A stretch of 64,000 nt of DNA from Streptomyces toxytricini (GTDB lineage Bacteria; Actinomycetota; Actinomycetes; Streptomycetales; Streptomycetaceae), in contig NZ_BMTY01000017.1 in assembly GCF_014649915.1 (NCBI RefSeq), positions 5,227-69,226 of the forward strand. Direction: 5' to 3'. Under the pieces are notes generated by a model. It was not told the DNA's origin. It ran no database searches and saw only the letters and a program-made list of their open reading frames with translations. Every line of letters begins with the position of its first letter. The stretch's first letter is position 1. Below, piece after piece: positions 1 through 57,216 of the stretch. Position numbers and translations under genes: made by a program.

Positions 1-3000
1 CTCAACACGATGGTCGACCAGCTGTCGAACTTCGCCGAGCAGGTGACCCGGGTGGCCCGCGAGGTGGGCACCGAGGGCATCCTCGGCGGGCAGGCGGAGG
101 TGAAGGGCGTCTCCGGCACCTGGAAGGACCTGACGCAGTCCGTCAACTTCATGGCGAACAACCTCACCTCGCAGGTGCGCAACATCGCCGAGGTGACGAC
201 GGCGGTGGCGACCGGAGACCTCTCCAAGAAGATCACGGTCGACGCCAAGGGCGAGATCCTGGAGCTGGTGACGACCGTCAACACGATGGTCGACCAGCTG
301 TCGTCGTTCGCGGAGCAGGTGACGCGGGTGGCCCGGGAGGTGGGCTCAGAGGGCATCCTCGGAGGCCAGGCGCGGGTGCGCGGCGTGACGGGCATCTGGA
401 AGGACCTGACCGACAACGTCAACCTGATGGCGAACAACCTGACCTCCCAGGTGCGCAACATCTCCCAGGTGTCGGCGGCCGTCGCCAACGGCGACCTGAC
501 CAAGAAGGTGACGGTGGAGGCGCGCGGCGAGGTCGCACAGCTCGCCGACACGGTCAACACGATGGTCAAGACGCTGTCCTCCTTCGCCGACGAGGTCACC
601 CGCGTGGCCCGCGAGGTGGGCACCGAGGGCCGCCTCGGCGGCCAGGCGCACGTCCCGGGGGTGTCGGGGACGTGGAAGGACCTCACCGACTCGGTGAACT
701 TCATGGCGTCGAACCTGACCGGTCAGGTGCGCCAGATCGCCATGGTCACGACGGCGATCGCCAAGGGCGACATGACCAAGAAGATCGACATCGATGCCCG
801 GGGCGAGATCCTGGAGCTGAAGAACACGATCAACACGATGGTCGACCAGCTGTCGTCGTTCGCGGAGCAGGTGACGCGGGTGGCCCGCGAGGTGGGCACC
901 GAGGGCATCCTCGGCGGTCAGGCCCGGGTGCGGGACGTCGACGGAACGTGGCGGGACCTGACCGAGTCCGTGAACGAGATGGCCGGCAACCTCACCCGGC
1001 AGGTCCGCGCGATCGCGGCCGTCGCCACGGCGGTGACCCGCGGCGACCTCAACCTGAAGATCGACGTGGACGCGGCGGGCGAGATCCAGGTCCTCCAGGA
1101 CAACATCAACACGATGATCGCCAACCTGCGCGACACGACGCTGGCGAACAAGGAGCAGGACTGGCTCAAGGGCAACCTCGCCCGGATCTCGGCCCTGATG
1201 CAGGGCCGCCGCGACCTGGACGACGTCGCCTCGCTGATCATGAGCGAGCTGACGCCGGTGGTCTCGGCGCAGCACGGGGCGTTCTTCCTGGCGTCGCCGG
1301 CCGGCGGGACCACCGAGATCGGCACCGAGGGCGGCCCGGACGGCTCGTACGAGCTGCGGATGCGCGGGAGCTACGCGTACGCGGGCGGGCAGATGCCGAC
1401 GGCGTTCAGGCCGGGGGAGGGGCTGATCGGGACGGTCGCGGAGGAGAAGCGGACGATCCTCGTCGAGAACACTCCGCCGGGCTACCTGAAGATCTCCTCG
1501 GGGCTCGGGGAGGCGCCCCCGGCGCACGTGATCGTGCTGCCGGTGCTCTTCGAGGGGAAGGTGCTGGGCGTGATCGAGCTGGCGTCGTTCCAGCCGTTCA
1601 CCCAGATCCAGAAGGACTTCCTGAGCCAGATCGCCGAGATGATCGGCACGAGCGTCAACACCATCAGCGTCAACTCCAAGACGGAGATGCTGCTCAAGCA
1701 GTCGCAGGAGATGACGGAGCAGCTGCGCGAGCGCTCCGACGAGCTGGAGAACCGGCAGAAGGCGCTCCAAGCGGCCAACGCGGAACTGGAGGAGAAGGCG
1801 GAGCTGCTGGCGCAGCAGAACCGGGACATCGAGGTGAAGAACACCGAGATCGAGGAGGCCCGGCAGGTCCTGGAGGAGCGCGCCGAGCAGCTCGCGGTCT
1901 CGATGCGCTACAAGTCGGAGTTCCTGGCGAACATGTCGCACGAGCTGCGGACGCCGCTGAACTCGCTGCTCATCCTGGCGAAGCTGCTCGCCGACAACGC
2001 GGACGAGAACCTCTCGCCCAAGCAGGTGGAGTTCGCGGAGACCATCCACGGGGCGGGCTCGGACCTGCTGCAGCTGATCAACGACATCCTGGACCTGTCG
2101 AAGGTCGAGGCGGGCAAGATGGACGTCTCGCCGACGCGGATCGCGCTCGTGCAGCTCGTCGACTACGTGGAGGCGACCTTCCGGCCCCTGACCGCGGAGA
2201 AGGGCCTGGACTTCTCGGTACGGGTCTCCCCGGAGCTGCCCGCCACCCTGCACACCGACGAGCAGCGGCTGCTGCAGGTGCTGCGGAACCTGTTGTCGAA
2301 CGCGGTGAAGTTCACCGACACCGGCGCGGTGGAGCTGGTGATCCGCCCGGCGGGGTCGGACGTGCCGCCGGCGATCCGCGAGCAGCTGCTGGAGGCGGGC
2401 TCGCTGCGCGAGGCGGACGCGGACCTGATCGCGTTCTCGGTGACGGACACCGGCATCGGGATCGCGGCGAGCAAGATGCTGGTGATCTTCGAGGCGTTCA
2501 AGCAGGCGGACGGGACCACGAGCCGCAAGTACGGCGGCACCGGCCTCGGGCTGTCGATCAGCCGGGAGATCGCCCGACTGCTGGGCGGCGAGATCCACGC
2601 GGCGAGCGAGCCCGGCCGCGGCTCCACCTTCACGCTGTACCTGCCGCTGCACCCGAGCGAGCTGCCGCCCCAGGGGTACGCCTCCCCGCAGCCCGGCGGC
2701 GGCCGGCCGGAGGGCCACCGGCTGCCGGGGGGCGGGGCGCGCGAGGTGCAGGCTCCGGCCGCCCAGGCGGCGCTCCCCGCGGCGCAGCCTGGGCCGGTCC
2801 CGCCGGCGGACGCACCCGGCGGGCAGGGCCGGGGCGGGGCGGCGCTGTTCCGCCGCCGCCGCAAGGCGCTGGGCGCCGAGCCGGAGCCGCGTACCGCCGG
2901 CGCGCCCGCCGCCCGGGCGGTCGGGGCGGCGCCGGAGGAGGAGGGCTGGACGGCCCCGCAGGAGGAGGCGGCGGCGACGCCGGCGTACGACTTCCACGGG

Positions 3001-3369
3001 GAGAAGGTGCTCATCGTCGACGACGACGTCCGGAACGTCTTCGCGCTCACCAGCGTGCTGGAGCAGCACGGGCTGGCGGTGCTGTACGCGGAGAACGGCC
3101 GGGAGGGCATCGAGGTGCTGGAGCAGCACGACGACGTGGCGGTCGTGCTGATGGACATCATGATGCCGGAGATGGACGGGTACGCGACGACGGCGGCGAT
3201 CCGGCGGATGCCGCAGTTCGCCGGGCTGCCGATCATCGCGCTCACCGCGAAGGCGATGAAGGGCGACAAGGAGAAGGCCATCGACTCCGGGGCTTCCGAC
3301 TACGTCACCAAGCCGGTCGACCCGGATTACCTGCTGTCGGTGATGGAGCAGTGGATGCGCGGGGAGTGA
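1..3369 (+). CDS. osaA: Hybrid sensor histidine kinase with tandem HAMP domains, OsaA-type (5' partial)
   Basis: The gene enters from the left edge, so its start and any upstream sensor part are missing. The visible protein has about four HAMP modules of 92 residues (nt 1-1130), a GAF domain (about 1200-1670), a coiled coil (1680-1900), a HisKA/HATPase core and a C-terminal receiver. The phospho-accepting His is encoded at 1939-1941 in [11 protein letters not shown]1 (DTGIGI) and G2 (GTGLGLSI) boxes follow, then an Ala/Pro/Gly-rich linker (about 2650-2990) and a receiver whose phospho-Asp is at 3154-3156 ([11 protein letters not shown]). The kinase, receiver and neighbouring response regulator match the Streptomyces OsaA-OsaB osmoadaptation pair. 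That name rests on domain order and synteny; the signal sensed cannot be read from sequence. Soluble HAMP arrays of this kind usually lack membrane segments, and none is visible here. Confidence 0.9.
4..1130 (+). repeat. 276-nt in-gene tandem repeat encoding HAMP modules
   Basis: The same AACACGATG-containing segment recurs at 4, 280, 556, 832 and, diverged, at 1108, which is an exact 276-nt period. Copies at 280 and 832 are nearly identical over more than 50 nt, including silent positions. This suggests recent duplication or gene conversion and not just protein-level selection. Confidence 0.85.
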
Positions 3370-3382
3370 CAGCCGCGGGCAG

Positions 3383-3411
3383 GGGACGCCCGGGGAACCC
3401 ACGGGCGTCCC
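3383..3411 (+). terminator. Hairpin after the hybrid kinase gene
   Basis: A perfect 9-bp stem (GGGACGCCC / GGGCGTCCC) with an 11-nt loop starts 13 nt after the stop codon. It is followed by a C/T-rich run, and no U-tract is needed in high-GC actinobacteria. It would separate the kinase transcript from the response regulator gene, though read-through is possible. Confidence 0.6.
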
Positions 3412-3595
3412 GCCCCGTTTCCCCTTCGTGCACAGTGACATCTTGGTGACAGGGTGTGGCGATCTCGGGACTGGGGCTACGATGACCGGCACAAGAACGG
3501 GCGGCGCAAGGATGCCGCCCTCTGGGGCGGGGCCCGGCGCGCGCGCCGGAGCCAGGAGCCGGGGAGGCCCCATGCCGGGGCGAGGAGGACAGGGC

Positions 3596-4273
3596 ATGGT
3601 GCAGAAGGCCAAGATCCTCCTGGTCGACGACCGGCCGGAGAATCTGCTGGCGCTGGAGGCCATCCTCTCCGCGCTCGATCAGACCCTGGTCAGGGCGTCG
3701 TCCGGGGAGGAAGCACTCAAGGCGCTGCTCACGGATGATTTCGCGGTCATCCTGCTGGACGTTCAGATGCCGGGGATGGACGGCTTCGAGACGGCCGCGC
3801 ACATCAAGCGGCGGGAGCGGACCCGGGACATCCCGATCATCTTCCTGACCGCGATCAACCACGGTCCGCACCACACCTTCCGCGGCTACGCGGCGGGTGC
3901 GGTGGACTACATCTCCAAGCCGTTCGACCCGTGGGTGCTGCGGGCGAAGGTCTCCGTGTTCGTCGAGCTGTACACGAAGAACTGCCGGCTCCGGGAGCAG
4001 GCGGCGCTGCTGCGGCTCCAGCTGGAGGGCGGCGGCACGGCCGACGGTGGCAAGGAGACCGCCGGGCTGCTCGCCGAGCTGTCGGCGCGGCTCGCGGCGG
4101 TGGAGGAGCAGGCCGAGGCTCTGACGAAGCAGCTCGGCGAGGAGGCCGCCGATCCGGCGGTCGTGGCGACCGCGGCCCACCTGGAGCGCAAGCTGACCGG
4201 GCTGCGGCGGGCGCTGGACGCGCTGGAGCCGGGCTCGGGCGGGGGAGCGCAGGTCATGCCCGCGCAGCACTGA
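3596..4273 (+). CDS. osaB: Response regulator with coiled-coil tail, OsaB-type
   Basis: This 225-residue protein has an N-terminal receiver (residues 5-125) with acidic pocket D11/D12, phospho-Asp D55 in LLDVQMPGMDG and conserved K108 in YISKPFDP. The C-terminal 80 residues are charged and Leu/Glu/Ala-rich and likely form a coiled coil. There is no recognisable DNA-binding domain, so it probably acts through protein contacts. I chose ATG 3596 because GAGGAGG lies 8 nt upstream and the receiver fold starts at once; the frame stays open further 5' but has no comparable site. It lies downstream of the hybrid kinase, as OsaB does relative to OsaA in Streptomyces coelicolor, where OsaB is required for osmoadaptation. 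Partnership with the kinase is inferred from position. Confidence 0.85.
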   Translation: MVQKAKILLVDDRPENLLALEAILSALDQTLVRASSGEEALKALLTDDFAVILLDVQMPGMDGFETAAHIKRRERTRDIPIIFLTAINHGPHHTFRGYAAGAVDYISKPFDPWVLRAKVSVFVELYTKNCRLREQAALLRLQLEGGGTADGGKETAGLLAELSARLAAVEEQAEALTKQLGEEAADPAVVATAAHLERKLTGLRRALDALEPGSGGGAQVMPAQH

Positions 4274-4386
4274 CCGGAAGCGGAAGGCCTGGCGGGTCGT
4301 CAAACCGACGCTCTCGTGGGCGACACGAAAGGGTGAAGGGGTGGGCACGCGTGTCCACCGGCGTGCGCACCGGTAACCTCGGGCCC

Positions 4387-7173
4387 ATGGCCTCACGTAC
4401 GTCCGGCAAGGGTTCCCAGAGCACGGCGGGCACCGCGAAGGGCCGCACCGGCCGTACGACGGCGCCGGCGAAGAAGGCGGCCCCCGCGCGCGGCGCGGCC
4501 CCGCGGAAGGCGCCCGCCAAGCGGGCCCCCGCGAAGAAGGCGCCGCCGAAGCCCGCCCCCTCCCCGACCGGGGGAGTGGTGCGGCTGGTGCGCGCCGTCT
4601 GGCTGGGCTGCGCGCACGCCGTCGGCGCGGTGTTCCGCGGAATCGGGCAGGGTGCGAAGAACCTCGACCCGGCGCACCGCAAGGACGGCGTCGCCCTGCT
4701 GCTCCTCGCCCTCGCCCTGATCGTCGCCGCCGGGACCTGGTCGAACCTGAGCGGCCCGGTCGGCGACCTGGTCACGATGCTGGTCACCGGCGCCTTCGGC
4801 CGGCTCGACCTGCTCGTGCCCGTCATCCTCGGCGTGATGGCCGTGCGCTTCATCCGCCACCCCGACCAGCCCGATGCCAACGGCCGGATCGGCGTCGGAA
4901 TGTCCGCACTGGCCGTCGGCGTCCTCGGCCTGGTCCACATCGCCTGCGGCGCGCCCGGCCGGGGCGAGGGCACCACCGCGATGCAGGACGCGGGCGGGCT
5001 GATCGGCTGGGCCGCGTCCAAGCCGCTGATCTTCACCATGGGTGCGCCGCTGGCCGTGCCGATGCTCGTCCTCCTCACGGTCTTCGGGCTGCTCGTCGTC
5101 ACCGCGACGCCCGTCAACGCCATCCCCGAGCGGCTGCGCCGGCTCGGCATCCGCCTCGGCGTGATCGCCCCGAACGAGTACGACGAGGAGTACGGGCTGG
5201 CCCCCGCCGCCCGGCGGGGCCGCCACGACCCCGGGCAGTGGCGGGCCCGCGGCGGCCCGGCCGACGCCGGCCCGGACCCGGTGGACGTGGAGGAGCAGGC
5301 CCTGGCGGCCCGCCGGCGCCGGCCGCGCCGGACCCCGGTCGACCCCGCCGTGGAGCGGGAGATGGACGCCGTCGACGTGGCCGCGGCGGCCGCGGCCGCC
5401 CTGGACGGGGTCGTCCTCGGCGGGATGCCCCCCTCGCCGGTGGTCGCCGACCTCACCCAGGGGATCACCCCCGGGCAGGACGGCGCGGAGCCCACGGCCC
5501 CGGTGCCCCCGGCCCGCGCCGGCGCGAAGCCCGGGGCACCCGCCGGGGTGCGCGGCGCCGCCGCGCCGGAGCCGGCCGGCGGGCTGCCGCACGACACCAC
5601 GGCAGCGGCGTCCGGCACGCTGTCCGTGCCGGACCTCACCAAGGCGCCGCCGGAGCCGCAGCCGCTGCCGCCCCGGGCGGAGCAGCTGCAGCTGCGCGGG
5701 GACATCACGTACGCCCTGCCCGCGCTGGACCTGCTGGAGCGCGGCGGGCCCGGCAAGACCCGCAGCGCGGCGAACGACGCCGTCGTCGCCTCCCTGCGCA
5801 ACGTCTTCTCCGAGTTCAAGGTCGACGCGGACGTCACGGGCTTCACCCGCGGCCCGACGGTCACCCGGTACGAGGTCACCCTCGGCGCGGCCGTCAAGGT
5901 GGAGCGGATCACCGCGCTGACCAAGAACATCGCGTACGCGGTCGCGAGCCCCGACGTCCGGATCATCAGCCCCATCCCGGGCAAGTCGGCCGTGGGCATC
6001 GAGATCCCGAACACCGACCGCGAGATGGTCAACTTGGGTGACGTGCTGCGCCTGGCGGACGCGGCCGAGGACGACCACCCGATGCTCGTGGCGCTCGGCA
6101 AGGACGTCGAGGGCGGCTACGTCATGGCCAACCTCGCGAAGATGCCGCACGTGCTGGTCGCCGGCGCCACCGGCTCCGGCAAGTCCTCCTGCATCAACTG
6201 CCTGATCACGTCGATCATGGTGCGGGCGACGCCGGAGGACGTCCGCATGGTGCTGATCGACCCCAAGCGGGTCGAGCTGACGGCCTACGAGGGCATCCCG
6301 CACCTGATCACGCCGATCATCACCAACCCCAAGCGGGCCGCGGAGGCGCTCCAGTGGGTCGTGCGCGAGATGGACTTGCGCTACGACGACCTGGCGGCCT
6401 TCGGCTACCGGCACATCGACGACTTCAACCAGGCCATCCGCGAGGGCAAGATCAAGCTGCCGCCCGGCAGCGAGCGGGAGCTCAGCCCGTACCCGTACCT
6501 CCTGGTGATCGTCGACGAGCTCGCCGACCTGATGATGGTCGCCCCGCGCGATGTGGAGGACTCCATCGTCCGCATCACCCAGCTGGCCCGCGCGGCCGGC
6601 ATCCACCTGGTGCTCGCCACGCAGCGCCCCTCGGTGGACGTGGTGACGGGCCTGATCAAGGCGAACGTGCCCTCGCGGCTCGCGTTCGCCACGTCCTCGC
6701 TCGCCGACAGCCGGGTGATCCTGGACCAGCCGGGCGCCGAGAAGCTGATCGGCAAGGGCGACGGGCTGTTCCTGCCGATGGGTGCGAACAAGCCGGTCCG
6801 CCTCCAGGGCGCCTTCGTCACGGAGGAGGAGGTCGGCAAGGTCGTCCGGCACTGCAAGGACCAGATGGCTCCGGTCTTCCGGGACGACGTCACCGTCGGG
6901 CAGCAGCAGAAGAAGGAGATCGACGAGGAGATCGGCGACGACCTCGACCTGCTCTGCCAGGCGGCCGAGCTGGTGGTCTCCACCCAGTTCGGCTCGACGT
7001 CGATGCTCCAGCGCAAGCTGCGCGTGGGCTTCGCGAAGGCGGGCCGGCTGATGGACCTCATGGAGTCGCGGGGGATCGTCGGTCCGAGCGAGGGCTCCAA
7101 GGCGCGCGACGTCCTGGTGAAAGCGGACGAACTGGACGGGGTCCTCGCGGTCATCCGCGGCGAGGCCCCGTAG
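4387..7173 (+). CDS. ftsK: DNA translocase FtsK
   Basis: A 928-residue DNA pump of the FtsK/SpoIIIE family, acting at sporulation septa to clear chromosomal DNA and help dimer resolution. The first 60 residues are Lys/Ala/Pro-rich. Four or five membrane segments follow (about residues 95-250), then a Pro/Ala-rich linker. The RecA-like motor has its P-loop GATGSGKS at residues 593-600, Walker B in LLVIVDELADLMM, and TQRPSVDVVTG. A C-terminal winged-helix gamma domain (from about residue 855) reads the KOPS-type polarity signal. ATG 4387 fits the usual MASRTSGKG start and sits 7 nt after the hexamer TAACCT (4374-4379) with no Shine-Dalgarno, so the transcript is probably leaderless. In-frame GTG codons upstream would add an implausible segment. 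Confidence 0.95.
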   Translation: MASRTSGKGSQSTAGTAKGRTGRTTAPAKKAAPARGAAPRKAPAKRAPAKKAPPKPAPSPTGGVVRLVRAVWLGCAHAVGAVFRGIGQGAKNLDPAHRKDGVALLLLALALIVAAGTWSNLSGPVGDLVTMLVTGAFGRLDLLVPVILGVMAVRFIRHPDQPDANGRIGVGMSALAVGVLGLVHIACGAPGRGEGTTAMQDAGGLIGWAASKPLIFTMGAPLAVPMLVLLTVFGLLVVTATPVNAIPERLRRLGIRLGVIAPNEYDEEYGLAPAARRGRHDPGQWRARGGPADAGPDPVDVEEQALAARRRRPRRTPVDPAVEREMDAVDVAAAAAAALDGVVLGGMPPSPVVADLTQGITPGQDGAEPTAPVPPARAGAKPGAPAGVRGAAAPEPAGGLPHDTTAAASGTLSVPDLTKAPPEPQPLPPRAEQLQLRGDITYALPALDLLERGGPGKTRSAANDAVVASLRNVFSEFKVDADVTGFTRGPTVTRYEVTLGAAVKVERITALTKNIAYAVASPDVRIISPIPGKSAVGIEIPNTDREMVNLGDVLRLADAAEDDHPMLVALGKDVEGGYVMANLAKMPHVLVAGATGSGKSSCINCLITSIMVRATPEDVRMVLIDPKRVELTAYEGIPHLITPIITNPKRAAEALQWVVREMDLRYDDLAAFGYRHIDDFNQAIREGKIKLPPGSERELSPYPYLLVIVDELADLMMVAPRDVEDSIVRITQLARAAGIHLVLATQRPSVDVVTGLIKANVPSRLAFATSSLADSRVILDQPGAEKLIGKGDGLFLPMGANKPVRLQGAFVTEEEVGKVVRHCKDQMAPVFRDDVTVGQQQKKEIDEEIGDDLDLLCQAAELVVSTQFGSTSMLQRKLRVGFAKAGRLMDLMESRGIVGPSEGSKARDVLVKADELDGVLAVIRGEAP

Positions 7174-50704: not shown

Positions 50705-51877
50705 CTACTTGAACTTCCTGCTCACCGCGTCGAAGATCCCCTTGGCCTCCGGGCCCAGCCGCGGACCCGCCAGCCAGCCCGCCTTCGCCGGGCCGATCGA
50801 CGTGTTCGACACCAGCGCCGGCTTGCCGTCACTGCCCGCGGCGATCCAGCCGCCGCCCGACGAACCGCCCGTCATCGTGCAGCCGATGCGGTACATCACC
50901 GGATCGTTCGCCTTCAGCGTGAGCCGCCCCGGCTTGTCCGTGCACTGGTACGCCTTCTGCCCGTCGAACGGCGCCGACGCCGGGTAGCCCGTCGCCGTCA
51001 TCCCGGACACCTTCGGCACCGCCGGCGCGTTGAACTCCACCGGGAGCGCCGCACCGACCGTCTCCTCCAGCGACTTGCCGGTGCTCTTCTCCGGCACCAC
51101 GTGCAGCACCGCGAAGTCGTACGGGGCACCCGCACCGCCCGTCGGGCCGCCGGTGGCGATCCACTGGTCGGAGGTCTGCGCCCAGTCGCTCCACCACACG
51201 CCGTACGGGGCCACCTCCTGCCGCGGCGCGCCCTTGAGCTGCGCCGCCGACTTGCCCGCGTTGTTGTACGACGGGACGAAGGCGATGTTCCGGTACCAGC
51301 CGCCGGCCTTGCCGGCGTGCACGCAGTGCCCGGCCGTCCAGACCATGTTCGACTTGCCCGGGTGCGCGGGGTCCTTCACGACGGTCGCCGAGCACACCAT
51401 GGAGCCCTCGGGGCCGTCGAAGAAGACCTTGCCCGACGCGGGGATCGCCGAGTGGTACGGCGTGGCCGCCGGCTTCGCCGGCACCGCCGCCGGAGCCGGG
51501 TCGGTGACGCCCTGGTCCTTGCCCGCGTCCGGGTCGACCGCCGGGGGCTGCGGCGTCTTCGCCGCCTCCCGCATCCGGTCCGGGTCCCACAGGCCCTCGA
51601 TGACCGGGTTGATGTAGTCGCCCGCCTCGCGGAGCCAGTCGTCCTTGTTCCAGTTCTTCCACTCACCTCCCCGCCACTTCTCCAGGTCGATGCCGTGCTG
51701 CTTCAGCTTGTCCTTCAGCTGGTCCGGGATCTTGATCCCGTCGCCTCCGGGCGGAAGGCTCGCCGCCACGGTGGGCTTGGCGTCGCCGCCGGCCTCCCCG
51801 TCGCCCGGGCCGCAGGCGGCGGTCATCGCGAGTGCCGCCGCGCACAGGATCGCGGTGACCGGTCGGTTCGGTCGCAT
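50705..51877 (-). CDS. Trypsin-like serine protease lipoprotein
   Basis: A 390-residue secreted protease. The lipobox Cys is C22 (LAMTAACGPG), so it should be anchored on the outer face of the membrane. A charged region (about residues 50-110) and a Pro/Ala linker precede the S1/V8-type domain with H184 (WTAGHCVHAG), D254 (YDFAVLHV) and S340 (TGGSSGGGW). Four Cys could form two disulfides. ATG 51877 has AGGGGGA upstream. It is divergent from the siderophore aminotransferase across 298 nt with no other gene. Confidence 0.88.
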   Translation of the reverse strand: MRPNRPVTAILCAAALAMTAACGPGDGEAGGDAKPTVAASLPPGGDGIKIPDQLKDKLKQHGIDLEKWRGGEWKNWNKDDWLREAGDYINPVIEGLWDPDRMREAAKTPQPPAVDPDAGKDQGVTDPAPAAVPAKPAATPYHSAIPASGKVFFDGPEGSMVCSATVVKDPAHPGKSNMVWTAGHCVHAGKAGGWYRNIAFVPSYNNAGKSAAQLKGAPRQEVAPYGVWWSDWAQTSDQWIATGGPTGGAGAPYDFAVLHVVPEKSTGKSLEETVGAALPVEFNAPAVPKVSGMTATGYPASAPFDGQKAYQCTDKPGRLTLKANDPVMYRIGCTMTGGSSGGGWIAAGSDGKPALVSNTSIGPAKAGWLAGPRLGPEAKGIFDAVSRKFK

Positions 51878-52175
51878 GTCGTGAGTCCCCCTGGTGTTTC
51901 CGGGCATGGGCTGCGGACGCCGTGAGGTGCGGCCGCGGATGCAGCACCCCACTATGCCGTCGCAGTCGGGGACGGCGAAGCCCGCCCCCTCGGTTCCCGT
52001 CCGGCCCCCTCCGTCGGCCCGCGCTTCCCGCCGCGCCGGCCCAAGGTTCTTGCGCCCGCCCCGTGTTCCGGCGCCGCCGCCGTCGTTGGTACGTACGGGA
52101 GAGCGGGGCGGGGGAGCGGCATCCGGGTCAGAAACGATCCGGCAGGGCGATTTCAGTGCGGGAGGTCCGACACTC

Positions 52176-53549
52176 GTGGCATTGACGGAGCAGGACACGG
52201 CCCCGGCCCAGGTACCGCCCCAAGGGGGCCGGGCGCCCGCAGCGGGCGGAGCGGCCGCGGCGGAGGGCATCCTGCGGCGGCAGGCTATGCGGGAGTCCGC
52301 GGCGCGCACGTACGCCCGCTCCCTGCCGATCGTGCCCGTGCGGGCCCGCGGCCTCACCATCGAGGGCGCGGACGGCCGCCGCTACCTCGACTGCCTGTCC
52401 GGCGCGGGCACCCTCGCGCTCGGTCACAACCACCCCGTGGTGCTTGAGGCCGTACGCGCCGTCCTCGACTCCGGGGCCCCGCTGCACGTCCTCGACCTCG
52501 CGACGCCGGTCAAGGACGCCTTCACCACCGAGCTGTTCGCGACCCTGCCCGGCGAACTGGCCGCCGACGCCCGGATCCAGTTCTGCGGGCCCGCCGGCAC
52601 CGACGCGGTGGAGGCTGCGCTCACCCTGGTCCGCACCGCGACCGGACGCTCCGGGCTCCTCGCCTTCACCGGCGCCTACCACGGCATGACCGCCGGCTCC
52701 CTCGGCGCGTCGGGCGGCGCCCCGGACGTGCGGGTGACGCGGCTGCCGTACCCGCAGGACCACCGCTGCCCGTTCGGCGTGGGCGGCGCCGAGGGGGCGC
52801 GGCTCGGCGCCCGCTGGACCCGGAGCCTGCTCGACGACCCCAAAGGCGGGGTGCCGACGCCCGCCGGGATGCTCGTCGAGCCCGTGCAGGGCGAGGGAGG
52901 GGTCCTGCCCGCCCCGGACGCCTGGCTGCGCAGCATGCGCGAGATCACCGCGGCCCGGGACATCCCGCTCATCGCGGACGAGGTGCAGACGGGCGTCGGC
53001 CGGACCGGCGCCTTCTGGGGCGTCGACCACGCCGGGGTCGTCCCCGACGTGATGGTCATGTCGAAGGCCATCGGCGGCAGCCTGCCGCTGGCGGTGATCG
53101 TGTACCGGTCCGCGCTGGACGTGTGGGCGCCCGGAGCCCACGCCGGCACGTTCCGCGGCAACCAGCTCGCGATGGCGGCCGGCGCCGCGACCCTCGCCCA
53201 CGTACGGGAGAACCGCCTCGCCGAACGCGCCGCGGAACTCGGCGCACGCATGCTCACCGCCCTGCGCGGGCTGGCCGCGCAGCAGCCGTGCGTCGCGGAC
53301 GTACGGGGCCGCGGCCTGATGATCGGCGTCGAACTCGCCGACCCGGCGACCGGCGCCGCCGCGAGCGACCTCGCCGCCGCCGTCCGCCGGGAATGCCTCC
53401 GACGCGGCCTGATCGTGGAACTCGGCGGCCGCCACTCCAGCGTCGTACGCCTCCTGCCGCCGCTCACCATCACCGACGAACAGGCCTCGGCGGTCCTGGA
53501 CCGCCTGGCAGACGCCCTCACCACCGCAACGCGCCACCACCCCCTCTGA
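52176..53549 (+). CDS. Class III aminotransferase, diaminobutyrate/2-oxoglutarate type (siderophore locus)
   Basis: A 457-residue PLP enzyme of the class III (ornithine/DABA) group. It carries GTDAVEAALTLVRTATGR, IADEVQTGVGRTG and the PLP-lysine in VMSKAIGGSLPLAV. In schizokinen and related NIS pathways a homolog makes 2,4-diaminobutyrate, which is then decarboxylated to diaminopropane. Here it heads a locus with an IucA/IucC synthetase and an acyltransferase. GTG 52176 has GGGAGG 10 nt upstream. I see no DmdR/IdeR-type iron box in the 298-nt promoter region. Confidence 0.85.
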   Translation: MALTEQDTAPAQVPPQGGRAPAAGGAAAAEGILRRQAMRESAARTYARSLPIVPVRARGLTIEGADGRRYLDCLSGAGTLALGHNHPVVLEAVRAVLDSGAPLHVLDLATPVKDAFTTELFATLPGELAADARIQFCGPAGTDAVEAALTLVRTATGRSGLLAFTGAYHGMTAGSLGASGGAPDVRVTRLPYPQDHRCPFGVGGAEGARLGARWTRSLLDDPKGGVPTPAGMLVEPVQGEGGVLPAPDAWLRSMREITAARDIPLIADEVQTGVGRTGAFWGVDHAGVVPDVMVMSKAIGGSLPLAVIVYRSALDVWAPGAHAGTFRGNQLAMAAGAATLAHVRENRLAERAAELGARMLTALRGLAAQQPCVADVRGRGLMIGVELADPATGAAASDLAAAVRRECLRRGLIVELGGRHSSVVRLLPPLTITDEQASAVLDRLADALTTATRHHPL

Positions 53550-54398
53550 CCTGCCCCCGCGGCCCGACGAAACCGTGCCGCGGCCCGTATCCCACCCGGA
53601 ACCACTCCCGCCAGGGGCGGCCACCCCACGAGGACCGCAGCCCCATCGTGGCGGACGCCCCCCGGAGCCCTCACCGGCCCGGGAGCGAACTCCCCAAGGC
53701 GCCGCCGCTCCCACCAGGGCGGAAGCTCCCAAGGCACCGCCGCTCCCACCGGGGCGGAAGCTCCGCAGGCACCGCCGCTCCTACCGGGGCGGAAGCCCCG
53801 AAGGCACCGCAGTCCCACCGGGGCGGGCGCCCCCGGACCCCGCACGGCCCCGGAGCGAAGCACCCCGAGGGACAGCAGCCCCACCGGGCGGGCGTCCCTC
53901 CCGGAGCCCCGGCCGTTCCAGGGGCGGACGCCCCGAGGGACCGCAGCCCCACCGGGCGGGCGCCCCCAAGGGACTGCCACCCCGCCCCACCGGGGCGGAC
54001 GCCCCCGGAGCCCTCACCGGCCCGGGAGCGGACTCCCCAAGGCACCGCCGCCCCTACCAGGGCGGAAGCCCGAAGGCACCGCAGTCCACCGGGGCGGCGC
54101 CCCCGGACCCCGCACGGCCCCGGAGTGAACACCCCGGGGGAGTGCAGCCCCACCGGGGCACCGCAGTCCCACCGGGGCGGGCGTCCCTCCCGGAGCCCTC
54201 ACCGCCCCGGGAGCGGGTACCCCAGGGGCCGCACTCACCAGAGGGCGGGCGCCCTGTGGGGAGCGGCGCCCGTCCGCCGGCACCGCCCCGACCGCCGCCG
54301 ACGGGCCCGCGGAGCCGCAGTCCGCCCACCGCACGGCGGCGGCCCCCCGACCGAACCACCACAGCCACCCCTCCCACGAAAACGGAGACATCTCGGCG
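53550..54398 (+). repeat. Non-coding 35-nt repeat block inside the siderophore locus
   Basis: This 849-nt stretch is C-rich on the plus strand and made of imperfect repeats. Units of the form GGCACCGCNG-(T/C)CC-(C/T)ACCGGGGCGG-(A/G)NGC-CCC alternate with a CCCTCACCGGCCCGGGAGCG-type module. The block from about 53651 recurs at about 53996, a 345-nt higher-order repeat. Frames through it shift from unit to unit, so it is not coding. A weak 7-bp hairpin at 53557-53583 may end the aminotransferase transcript. The last 100 nt before the next gene hold no repeats. Confidence 0.8.
53698..53837 (+). repeat. Four exact-length 35-nt tandem units
   Basis: Units start at 53698, 53733, 53768 and 53803, each 35 nt, with a few substitutions between neighbours. 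There are no spacers, which excludes a CRISPR array. Confidence 0.85.
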
Positions 54399-56513
54399 AT
54401 GAGCAGGCCCCCCGTCACCCCCGAGCCCCGCCTCCCGCACACCGACCGGCACTCCGCCTGCCTGCCGCCGGCAGCCACCCCGGCCCTGCGGGCCGGCGGT
54501 GACCCGGCCGCGGACGGGCAGGCCGCGGCGTCGGGCCGGCCCGCCCCGGCTGCCTCGCCGGCCCGGCCGGCCGCAGCCGCCGCGCCGACACGGTCTGCGC
54601 CGGCCGCGCGGCCGGCGCAGGCGGCAGAGCCCCTCGGCGCGGCGGGCGGGCCGCAGGGCGAGGAGGCGGAGAGCCGGGTGCCGCGGCAGCAGAGCCGGGT
54701 GCCGCGGCAGCACGGCGGGCTCCGCGGGCACGGCGAGGCGGGCGGTGGAGAGCCCGAACCACTGCCCGAGTCGCCCGACCACCCCGACCCCGACCCCGAC
54801 CCCGCCGCCGCGGCCGAAGCCGCGGCGGTGGAGAACCTCCTGCGGTGCTGGGTCCGGGAGCGGGGCATCGGCCGCCCCGACGGGCCCGTCGGGACGATGC
54901 TGCGCATCCCCCTTCCCGCATCCGGCACCGCGGTGACCGCCGACGTGCGCCACTGGTCTGCGGTCGGGTGCCACCGGTTCGGCTCCGCCCGGATCGAAGG
55001 CGCCCCTGACGGTGCCCCCGCCCTCGACGCGGTGTCCCTCGCCGCGCTGCTCGCCCGCGAGGCCGGGCACGGCGGACCCCGCGCCACCGATCTCGTCGCC
55101 CGAGTCGCGGACTCGGTCCGCCGCACCGCCGAGTTCATCGCCCACCGGCGCGAACACCCTCGGCCGCCCGCGCCCGTCGACGGTGATCCCTTCCTGACCG
55201 CCGAGCAGTCCCTGCTCCTCGGCCACCCCCTCCAGCCCGATCCGAAGAGCCGCGAGGGACTCTCCGACACCGAAGCCCGCCGCTTCTCACCCGAACTCCA
55301 CGGCTCCTTCCCCCTGCACTGGTTCGCCGTCGCACCCGGCGCCCTCGCCACGGACTCAGCCTGGACCGAACGCGGCCGCCCCGTCTCCGCCGCCCGGCTC
55401 CTGGCCCGCCTCGCGCCCGGCCTCCCGGCGCCCGAGGGCACCACCCCCCTTCCCCTTCACCCCTGGCAGGCCCGCGACCTGCTGCACCGCCCCGCCGTCG
55501 CCGCCCTCCTCGACGACGGGCTCCTGTACGACCTCGGCCCGCACGGCGAGCCCTGGCACCCCACCTCCTCCGTCCGCACCGTGGCCCGCCCCCGCACTTC
55601 CGTGATGCTCAAGCTCTCCCTCGGCCTGCGCATCACCAACTCCCGCCGCGAGAACCTCCGCAAGGAGCTCCACCGCGGCGTCGAGGTGCACCGGCTGCTC
55701 CGGACCGGCCTCGCGGAGCAGTGGCAGGCCGCCCACCCCGGCTTCGACATCGTCCGGGACCCCGCCTGGGTCGCCGTCGACGCCCCGGACGGCAGCGCCG
55801 TCCCCGGACTCGACGCCGTCCTCCGCCACAACCCCTTCCTCCCCGGCGACGACGCCCTGTGCATCGCCGCCCTGACCTCGCCCCGCCCCCGGCCGGGCCG
55901 GACCGGCATGCGGTCACGGCTCGCCGACACCGTCCACCGGCTCGCCGCCACCACCGGGCGCCCCCCGTCCGCCGTGTCCGCCGAGTGGTTCCTGCGCTAC
56001 CTCGACCACGTCGTCAGGCCCGTCCTCGCCTTCGACGCGCTCGCGGGCATCGCCCTCGAAGCCCACCAGCAGAACACCCTCGTCGTGCTCGACACCGACG
56101 GCTGGCCCGCCGGCGGCCGCTACCGCGACAACCAGGGCTACTACTTCCGTACCTCCCGGCGCGCCGAGCTGGAGCACCGGCTCCCCGGCATCGGCGCGGC
56201 CAGCGACACCTTCGTCTCCGACGCCGTCGCCGACGAACGCTTCGCCTACTACCTCGGCATCAACAACGTGCTCGGCCTCATCGGGGCCTTCGGCTCCGAG
56301 CAGCTCGCCGACGAGCGCGTCCTCCTCGCCGCCTTCCGCCGGTTCCTCGGCCGGGCCCGCGACCTCGGGCCGCTGCCCGCGCTGCTGCTCGACTCGCCCA
56401 CCCTGCGCTGCAAGGCGAACCTGCTGACCCGCCTGGGCGGCCTCGACGAGCTCACCGGCCCCGTCGACGCGCAGTCCGTCTACGTCACCCTCCCCAACCC
56501 CCTCCACGATTGA
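54399..56513 (+). CDS. NIS siderophore synthetase (IucA/IucC family)
   Basis: A 704-residue NRPS-independent siderophore synthetase that joins a carboxylate to an amine or alcohol after ATP activation. The IucA/IucC domain has HPWQ, PTSSVRTV, KLSLGLRITNSRRENLRKEL and a FhuF-like C-terminal part with EAHQQNTLV. The first 143 residues are low-complexity (Ala/Pro/Gly) and include a 21-nt tandem duplication (54668-54709). The conserved fold begins near GTG 54828, which is a possible alternative start; ATG 54399 has GGAG 11 nt upstream. The acyltransferase gene starts 7 nt after its stop. Confidence 0.85.
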   Translation: MSRPPVTPEPRLPHTDRHSACLPPAATPALRAGGDPAADGQAAASGRPAPAASPARPAAAAAPTRSAPAARPAQAAEPLGAAGGPQGEEAESRVPRQQSRVPRQHGGLRGHGEAGGGEPEPLPESPDHPDPDPDPAAAAEAAAVENLLRCWVRERGIGRPDGPVGTMLRIPLPASGTAVTADVRHWSAVGCHRFGSARIEGAPDGAPALDAVSLAALLAREAGHGGPRATDLVARVADSVRRTAEFIAHRREHPRPPAPVDGDPFLTAEQSLLLGHPLQPDPKSREGLSDTEARRFSPELHGSFPLHWFAVAPGALATDSAWTERGRPVSAARLLARLAPGLPAPEGTTPLPLHPWQARDLLHRPAVAALLDDGLLYDLGPHGEPWHPTSSVRTVARPRTSVMLKLSLGLRITNSRRENLRKELHRGVEVHRLLRTGLAEQWQAAHPGFDIVRDPAWVAVDAPDGSAVPGLDAVLRHNPFLPGDDALCIAALTSPRPRPGRTGMRSRLADTVHRLAATTGRPPSAVSAEWFLRYLDHVVRPVLAFDALAGIALEAHQQNTLVVLDTDGWPAGGRYRDNQGYYFRTSRRAELEHRLPGIGAASDTFVSDAVADERFAYYLGINNVLGLIGAFGSEQLADERVLLAAFRRFLGRARDLGPLPALLLDSPTLRCKANLLTRLGGLDELTGPVDAQSVYVTLPNPLHD
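54668..54709 (+). repeat. 21-nt perfect tandem duplication in the NIS synthetase N-terminus
   Basis: Two identical 21-nt copies (54668-54688 and 54689-54709) encode the repeated SRVPRQQ/SRVPRQH segment, in the poorly conserved N-terminal extension. Confidence 0.9.
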
Positions 56514-56520
56514 GCGACCG

Positions 56521-57216
56521 ATGCCCTCCACCGACACCCAGGCCCCGCCCTGCGTCCCCGCCCCCGCGCGCGCCGCCGGCCCCACCACCGCGCACCCCGC
56601 CCAGCTGCGGCTCAGGGCCGGCCTGCTGCCCCTGCTCGCAGAGGCCGACCTGCTCGACTCGCCCAGCAGCTGGGGCAGCACCCGCACCGCCGCCGGCGCC
56701 TTCCGCCTGGAACCCGTCCGCCTCGACCGCGACCTGGACCTGATCACCCGCTGGATGAACGACCCCGAGGTGGCCGCCTACTGGGACCTCGCCGGGCCCC
56801 CCACGCTCACGGCCGCACACCTGCGGGCCCAGATCGACGGCGACGGAGGCAGCATCCCCTGCCTCGGCCTCCTCGACGGCACCCCCGTCAGCTACTGGGA
56901 GGTCTACCGGGCCGACCTCGACCCGCTCGCCCGCCACTACCCGGCACGCCCCCACGACACCGGTATCCACCTGCTGATCGGGGACGGCAGGAACCGCGGC
57001 CGCGGCCTCGGGACCGCGCTTCTGCGCGCCGTCGCCAACCTCGTGCTCGACAACCGCCCGCGCTGCACCCGCGTCATCGCCGAACCGGACATCCGCAACA
57101 CCCCCTCCCTCTCCGCCTTCCTCGGCTCCGGCTTCCGCTGGACCGGGAACATCGACCTGCCCGGCAAGAGCGCGGCCCTGATGGTCCGCGAGCGGGCGCT
57201 CCGCAGCCTCATCTGA
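56521..57216 (+). CDS. Siderophore acyltransferase (GNAT, IucB/AlcB type)
   Basis: A 231-residue GNAT acyltransferase similar to IucB, AlcB and RhbD, which acylate a hydroxylamine during siderophore assembly. It has WMNDPEVAAYWDL, YWEVYRADLDPLARHY and the CoA-binding GRGLGTALLRAV, then VIAEPDIRNTPSLSAFL. It starts 7 nt after the NIS synthetase stop and is probably coupled to it. The locus has no visible amine monooxygenase, which normally makes the hydroxylamine substrate. Confidence 0.85.
   Translation: MPSTDTQAPPCVPAPARAAGPTTAHPAQLRLRAGLLPLLAEADLLDSPSSWGSTRTAAGAFRLEPVRLDRDLDLITRWMNDPEVAAYWDLAGPPTLTAAHLRAQIDGDGGSIPCLGLLDGTPVSYWEVYRADLDPLARHYPARPHDTGIHLLIGDGRNRGRGLGTALLRAVANLVLDNRPRCTRVIAEPDIRNTPSLSAFLGSGFRWTGNIDLPGKSAALMVRERALRSLI

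Follow-up and report, generated by a model that had tools for sequence, protein, structure and literature searches.

A ~35-nt tandem repeat array at a length-variable junction between two siderophore genes of Streptomyces toxytricini

In Streptomyces toxytricini, the genes for a class-III aminotransferase and an IucA/IucC siderophore synthetase, which would be expected to be co-expressed, are separated by 849 nt of repetitive DNA. What are these repeats, and do they matter to the operon? We addressed this question within a 64-kb stretch of DNA around the locus (hereafter, the window; Table 1), starting from an earlier note, made from the sequence alone, which had suggested that the repeats might reduce downstream expression, form G-rich structures, bind a protein in phase, or belong to a mobile minisatellite family.

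Table 1. Coordinates in the window of the repeat array, its parts and the genes of the operon
Feature	Position	Strand	Evidence
Class-III aminotransferase, diaminobutyrate-2-oxoglutarate transaminase family, upstream operon gene	51894–53549	+	PF00202, E 7.8e-86 from residue 143; TIGR00709, 464 bits (cut-off 401.6)
Spacer containing the array, predicted non-coding	53550–54398		Codon-phase GC flat; codon use not coding-like in any frame; synthetase frame broken by TGA at 54126
~35-nt periodicity, whole extent, ~20 degenerate units	53602–54297		Wrap-around alignment to the unit: 580 vs at most 138 in shuffles
Higher-order block, copy 1, order A'-B-A-A-A-A'-B'	53626–53840		Local alignment to the 53971–54123 region
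Best-preserved run, 3.9 copies of 35 nt	53693–53826		TRF, 90% matches, score 205
Higher-order block, copy 2, two units fewer	53971–54173		Offset 343 nt at start, ~270–273 nt at end
Candidate ribosome-binding site GGAGA, ~10–11 nt upstream of the start codon	54383–54398	+	Sequence read directly
IucA/IucC-family (NRPS-independent) siderophore synthetase, FhuF-like C-terminal domain	54399–56513	+	PF04183, E 6.7e-64; PF06276, E 1.6e-32; coding codon use starts here
GNAT acetyltransferase, operon gene 3, 7 nt past the synthetase	56521–57216	+	PF13523, E 2.1e-47

The array consists of ~18–20 imperfect units of ~35 nt that extend over ~0.7–0.85 kb, most clearly at 53664–54173, and its units, lying head to tail, fall within the ~10–100-nt unit length of minisatellites and recur beyond chance. 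The spacer contains 134 repeated 12-mers, whereas none of 200 shuffles had more than 8, and by this measure it is the most densely repeated 849-nt stretch of the window. Apart from the best-preserved run, TRF reported a second period-35 row at 53692–54105 (12.1 copies, 67% matches) and a double period of 68 nt at 53786–54157 (score 231). The earlier note was right about the period but not about the exactness of the units: neighbours are identical at 31/35 and 32/35 positions (89–91%), and the fourth unit is 32 nt long. Its second interleaved module is borne out by two unit types, A (GGCACCGCCGCTCCCACCGGGGCGGAAGC...) and B (CCGGAGCCCTCACCGGCCCGGGAGCGAACTCC...), that alternate in blocks. The higher-order duplication that it put at 345 nt is likewise real, but the offset between the two copies is not constant, copy 2 being shorter, and because the copies differ by two whole units, they carry the signature of slippage or unequal exchange. 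As had also been noted, spacers are lacking; a CRISPR array is not supported, as the units are contiguous and degenerate, with no unique spacers between near-identical repeats. At the start of the window, positions 2–1120 hold a strong 276-nt tandem repeat of ~4 copies that resembles repeated protein domains (HAMP-like, by eye).

The assembly is a draft of 53 contigs, so the copy number of the array is not certain, and the contigs of several relatives end at this junction (locus L198 at 12 nt and L204 at 47 nt past the aminotransferase stop), as if junction repeats break assemblies. That the array is itself a collapsed or mis-assembled repeat nevertheless seems very unlikely: it is internal to its contig, with sensible flanks and both adjacent genes intact, and its units have diverged enough for unique assembly.

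Is the array translated? GC content by codon position, which is strongly phased in both flanking genes, is flat from 53550 to ~54250. (In the aminotransferase ORF this signal is present only from ~52300, so the true start of that gene probably lies well downstream of 51894.) We scored 180-nt windows with a codon model built from the N-terminal tails of 15 orthologous synthetases. In frame, windows of those tails averaged +0.30 (sd 0.12), whereas the best of the three frames across the array never exceeded 0.08 and was mostly negative; only 0–3% of the tail windows score that low. No piecewise frame pattern was found within the array, and coding-like scores return at the annotated synthetase start. 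The synthetase frame is interrupted by the TGA at 54126 and restarts at 54399 behind GGAGA. The description of the spacer as non-coding, frame-shifting DNA is thus confirmed, and the outcome likewise favours the non-coding reading over the alternative that the earlier note had raised, a single open frame conserved across strains. A Pro/Arg-rich protein translated from the array, for example from the 275-aa ORF at 53575–54402, is hardly credible. Frames 1 and 2 are open throughout, and the end of this ORF overlaps the first codon of the synthetase in an ATGA, an arrangement that resembles translational coupling, but open frames are expected here because the spacer, at 80% GC with only 4.7% T, has few stops; a period of 35 shifts the frame with every unit, the codon use is unlike that of coding tails in all frames, and there is neither a ribosome-binding site upstream of 53575 nor a Pfam match. 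A coding amino-acid-repeat satellite, as in the synthetase tails, was also rejected given the in-frame TGA and the periods of 35, 35 and 68, none divisible by 3. Judged by its sequence, the array encodes no protein.

We then asked whether the unit occurs elsewhere. Used as a DNA query against its own genome, the array retrieved no second array: besides itself it matched only low-complexity sequence, weakly, at scattered places and mostly through its last 100 nt. When up to 3 mismatches were allowed, the unit pattern hit the array locus and chance sites only, and a shorter unit pattern stayed at control level (71/55 vs 71/58 for the reversed control). Unit-like matches clustered on one other contig of this genome (C3), but these lie in a Pro-rich ORF of 1406 aa (291–4511), coding, kinase-like by eye and unrelated to the array, with repeats of 84, 168, 72, 57 and 36 nt. 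Across 393 Streptomyces genomes the unit pattern occurred at the background rate of ~1 per strand, and no array-like match was found at the examined orthologous junctions or in 20 relatives. These searches covered one genome per species, no second strain of the species of the window being found, and the closest genome shares only ~85% DNA identity with the window across the aminotransferase. The search proposed in the earlier note therefore speaks against a mobile minisatellite family spread through the genome, the unit forming an array at a single locus; a dispersed repeat family (MIRU, REP or transposed satellite) was rejected, as unit matches at other loci stayed at chance level. A literature search found no description of the array or of the synthetase tails.

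The history of the locus becomes clearer from the orthologous junctions, which we compared across 80 plus ~25 Streptomyces loci. In the clade to which the window belongs in the tree, the synthetase starts 8–26 nt past the aminotransferase stop, behind AAGGA-like ribosome sites, and where relatives carry additional DNA at the junction, that DNA encodes an in-frame N-terminal extension, or tail, of the synthetase that is Pro/Ala-rich and 56 to ~912 aa long. One exception is S. sp. NBC_00249 (L024), where start codon and tail are not in the same frame. Tandem arrays in orthologous tails (TRF score of at least 80) have periods divisible by 3 in 33 of 33 cases, compared with 0 of the 3 TRF rows of the window. 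Closest to the window in the tree (support 91) are S. flavotricini and S. roseus, whose junctions measure just 190 and 185 nt up to the synthetase core and whose tails are 56–58 aa long; because these junctions are short, the array is probably a derived state. In a distant Streptomyces group (e.g., L085, L076 and L079), the two genes are separated by 0.3–0.65 kb of other sequence, so that an uncoupled arrangement is not unique to the window, whereas the array is. The excess of C over G on the plus strand is real (GC skew −0.17) but not particular to the array, the orthologous junctions ranging from −0.06 to −0.31.

Several junctions and tails have features of their own. The synthetase N-terminal tail is hypervariable in one Streptomyces clade (window 54399–54794; L023, L029, L030, L035, L037, L150–L157, L197 and L200), the variable part preceding a short motif near VPRQK(D/A)G and then the conserved core VENLLRCWV. 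In the window, residues 1–132 of the synthetase form its own Pro/Ala-rich tail, in which an exact 21-nt direct repeat (RVPRQQSRVPRQHG, 54670–54711) doubles the conserved VPRQ motif. In one genome (G012), the aminotransferase and synthetase matches (L160 and L161) lie ~561 kb apart on one contig; the first codons of the tail are retained right after the aminotransferase and are followed by unrelated sequence, so that this junction resembles a rearrangement point or a mis-join. Another junction (L045) holds a 448-nt stretch of 58% GC, unlike its neighbours, with a perfect 46-nt repeat that is palindromic at its ends (GGTTCTCGTCCGCCGC...GCGGCGGACGAGAACC).

These comparisons suggest two histories. 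In the one that we favour and consider probable, the array is a single-locus, non-coding, GC-rich minisatellite that arose by slippage in a short operon spacer, at a junction of variable length. The spacer from the aminotransferase stop to the synthetase ribosome-binding site, at first very short, would have grown by replication slippage and unequal exchange, at a junction whose length changes readily across this Streptomyces clade. Growth in the relatives takes place inside the reading frame and lengthens the synthetase tail; in the window, it would have taken place outside the frame, with the synthetase initiating anew at 54399, and a period of 35 would be tolerated because the array lies outside the reading frame. 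Alternatively, the array could be the wreck of a former in-frame tail, broken by an expansion that was not a multiple of 3, with the synthetase now using an internal ATG. The long in-frame tails of relatives occupy exactly this position, the start of the S. sp. NBC_00249 tail is out of frame with the remainder, and the stretch just upstream of the present start (54264–54398) shows codon use that is weakly coding-like when read in the synthetase frame (+0.12), which would fit repeats that expanded within a former tail and counts against the history that we favour. However, downstream of the TGA at 54126 the synthetase frame offers no ATG, GTG or TTG before 54399, a good ribosome-binding sequence stands directly at 54399, the array lacks a frame pattern even piecewise, and the nearest relatives have short tails, all of which makes a wrecked tail rather unlikely, if the more serious competitor.

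The remaining suggestions of the earlier note concern structure and binding. G-rich structures are not indicated, as G4 motifs number 0 on the plus strand and 1 on the minus strand, compared with 0.31 and 3.26 expected, and a protein bound in phase is disfavoured because 35 bp correspond to 3.33 helical turns, so that neighbouring units face different directions. The array does fold more stably than shuffles on both strands (z −4.0 and −3.2), an excess that is open to reading as selected structure and in that respect counts against a minisatellite born of slippage, but for which the repeats alone can account. Untranslated stretches inside operons are targets of Rho, and the array RNA is richer in C than in G; together with the folding, these properties would suit a functional cis-acting leader or attenuator that tunes the synthetase, for example through Rho-dependent polarity, with two mutually exclusive hairpins per unit sharing a GGGGC arm. 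This we regard as improbable. Across the 16 units compared within the array, neither candidate hairpin showed covariation above shuffles, so that conserved hairpins were rejected, and a structured RNA leader was rejected likewise, compensatory helix changes being absent and Rfam returning no family, only a weak chance match to HOTTIP_1 below threshold. The excess of hairpins in the array is not significant (15 vs 11.7, sd 2.2). No intrinsic terminator (GC stem plus T run) was found in 51800–54800 by a scan that does not cover the U-less terminators of GC-rich genomes, no sigma-70 promoter was found, and the window contains no DmdR/IdeR-type iron box. The array is, moreover, missing from all relatives examined, leaving nothing to show conservation, and we found no evidence for selection on the array itself. 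Less probable still is a recently gained, expression-dampening rheostat, in which copy number would set the amount of synthetase and the variation in tail length would have moved out of frame.

A minisatellite without a selected role could still affect the operon. As an untranslated, strongly folded stretch of ~850 nt in the operon mRNA, it would end translational coupling; from this we infer that the spacer probably uncouples translation of the synthetase, and, in line with the reduced downstream expression proposed earlier, it may lower expression of the synthetase and the acetyltransferase by polarity. Polarity at the array is plausible because termination sites without U-tracts, possibly Rho-dependent, have been reported in Streptomyces clavuligerus (PMC8269248).

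Among known systems, the array is most readily compared with the non-coding satellites and minisatellites of prokaryotes (PMC6749651), with which it shares tandem units of more than 30 nt, an intergenic position and an origin attributed to replication errors. The same survey counted 38 satellites in S. coelicolor and found long-unit satellites to be mostly multiples of 3 and coding (PMC6749651); the array is neither. Nor is it part of a dispersed family, as the satellites of Leptospira interrogans are. The orthologous synthetase tails resemble the array in operon position, GC-rich and C-biased composition and growth by tandem repetition, but they are translated and their repeat periods are divisible by 3. 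The MIRU-VNTR loci of mycobacteria are, like the array, actinobacterial intergenic tandem repeats with units of tens of bases, but MIRUs form a dispersed family at many loci, whereas the unit of the array is confined to one.

The array is therefore an ordinary kind of minisatellite and, as such, a local curiosity. More useful than the array is the observation that the start of the siderophore synthetase is a hot spot of repeat growth in one Streptomyces clade, where growth usually stays in frame, adding up to ~900 Pro/Ala-rich residues, and in the window took place out of frame. Together, the tails and the array offer a natural series for the effect of tail length, or of an untranslated spacer, on a siderophore operon.
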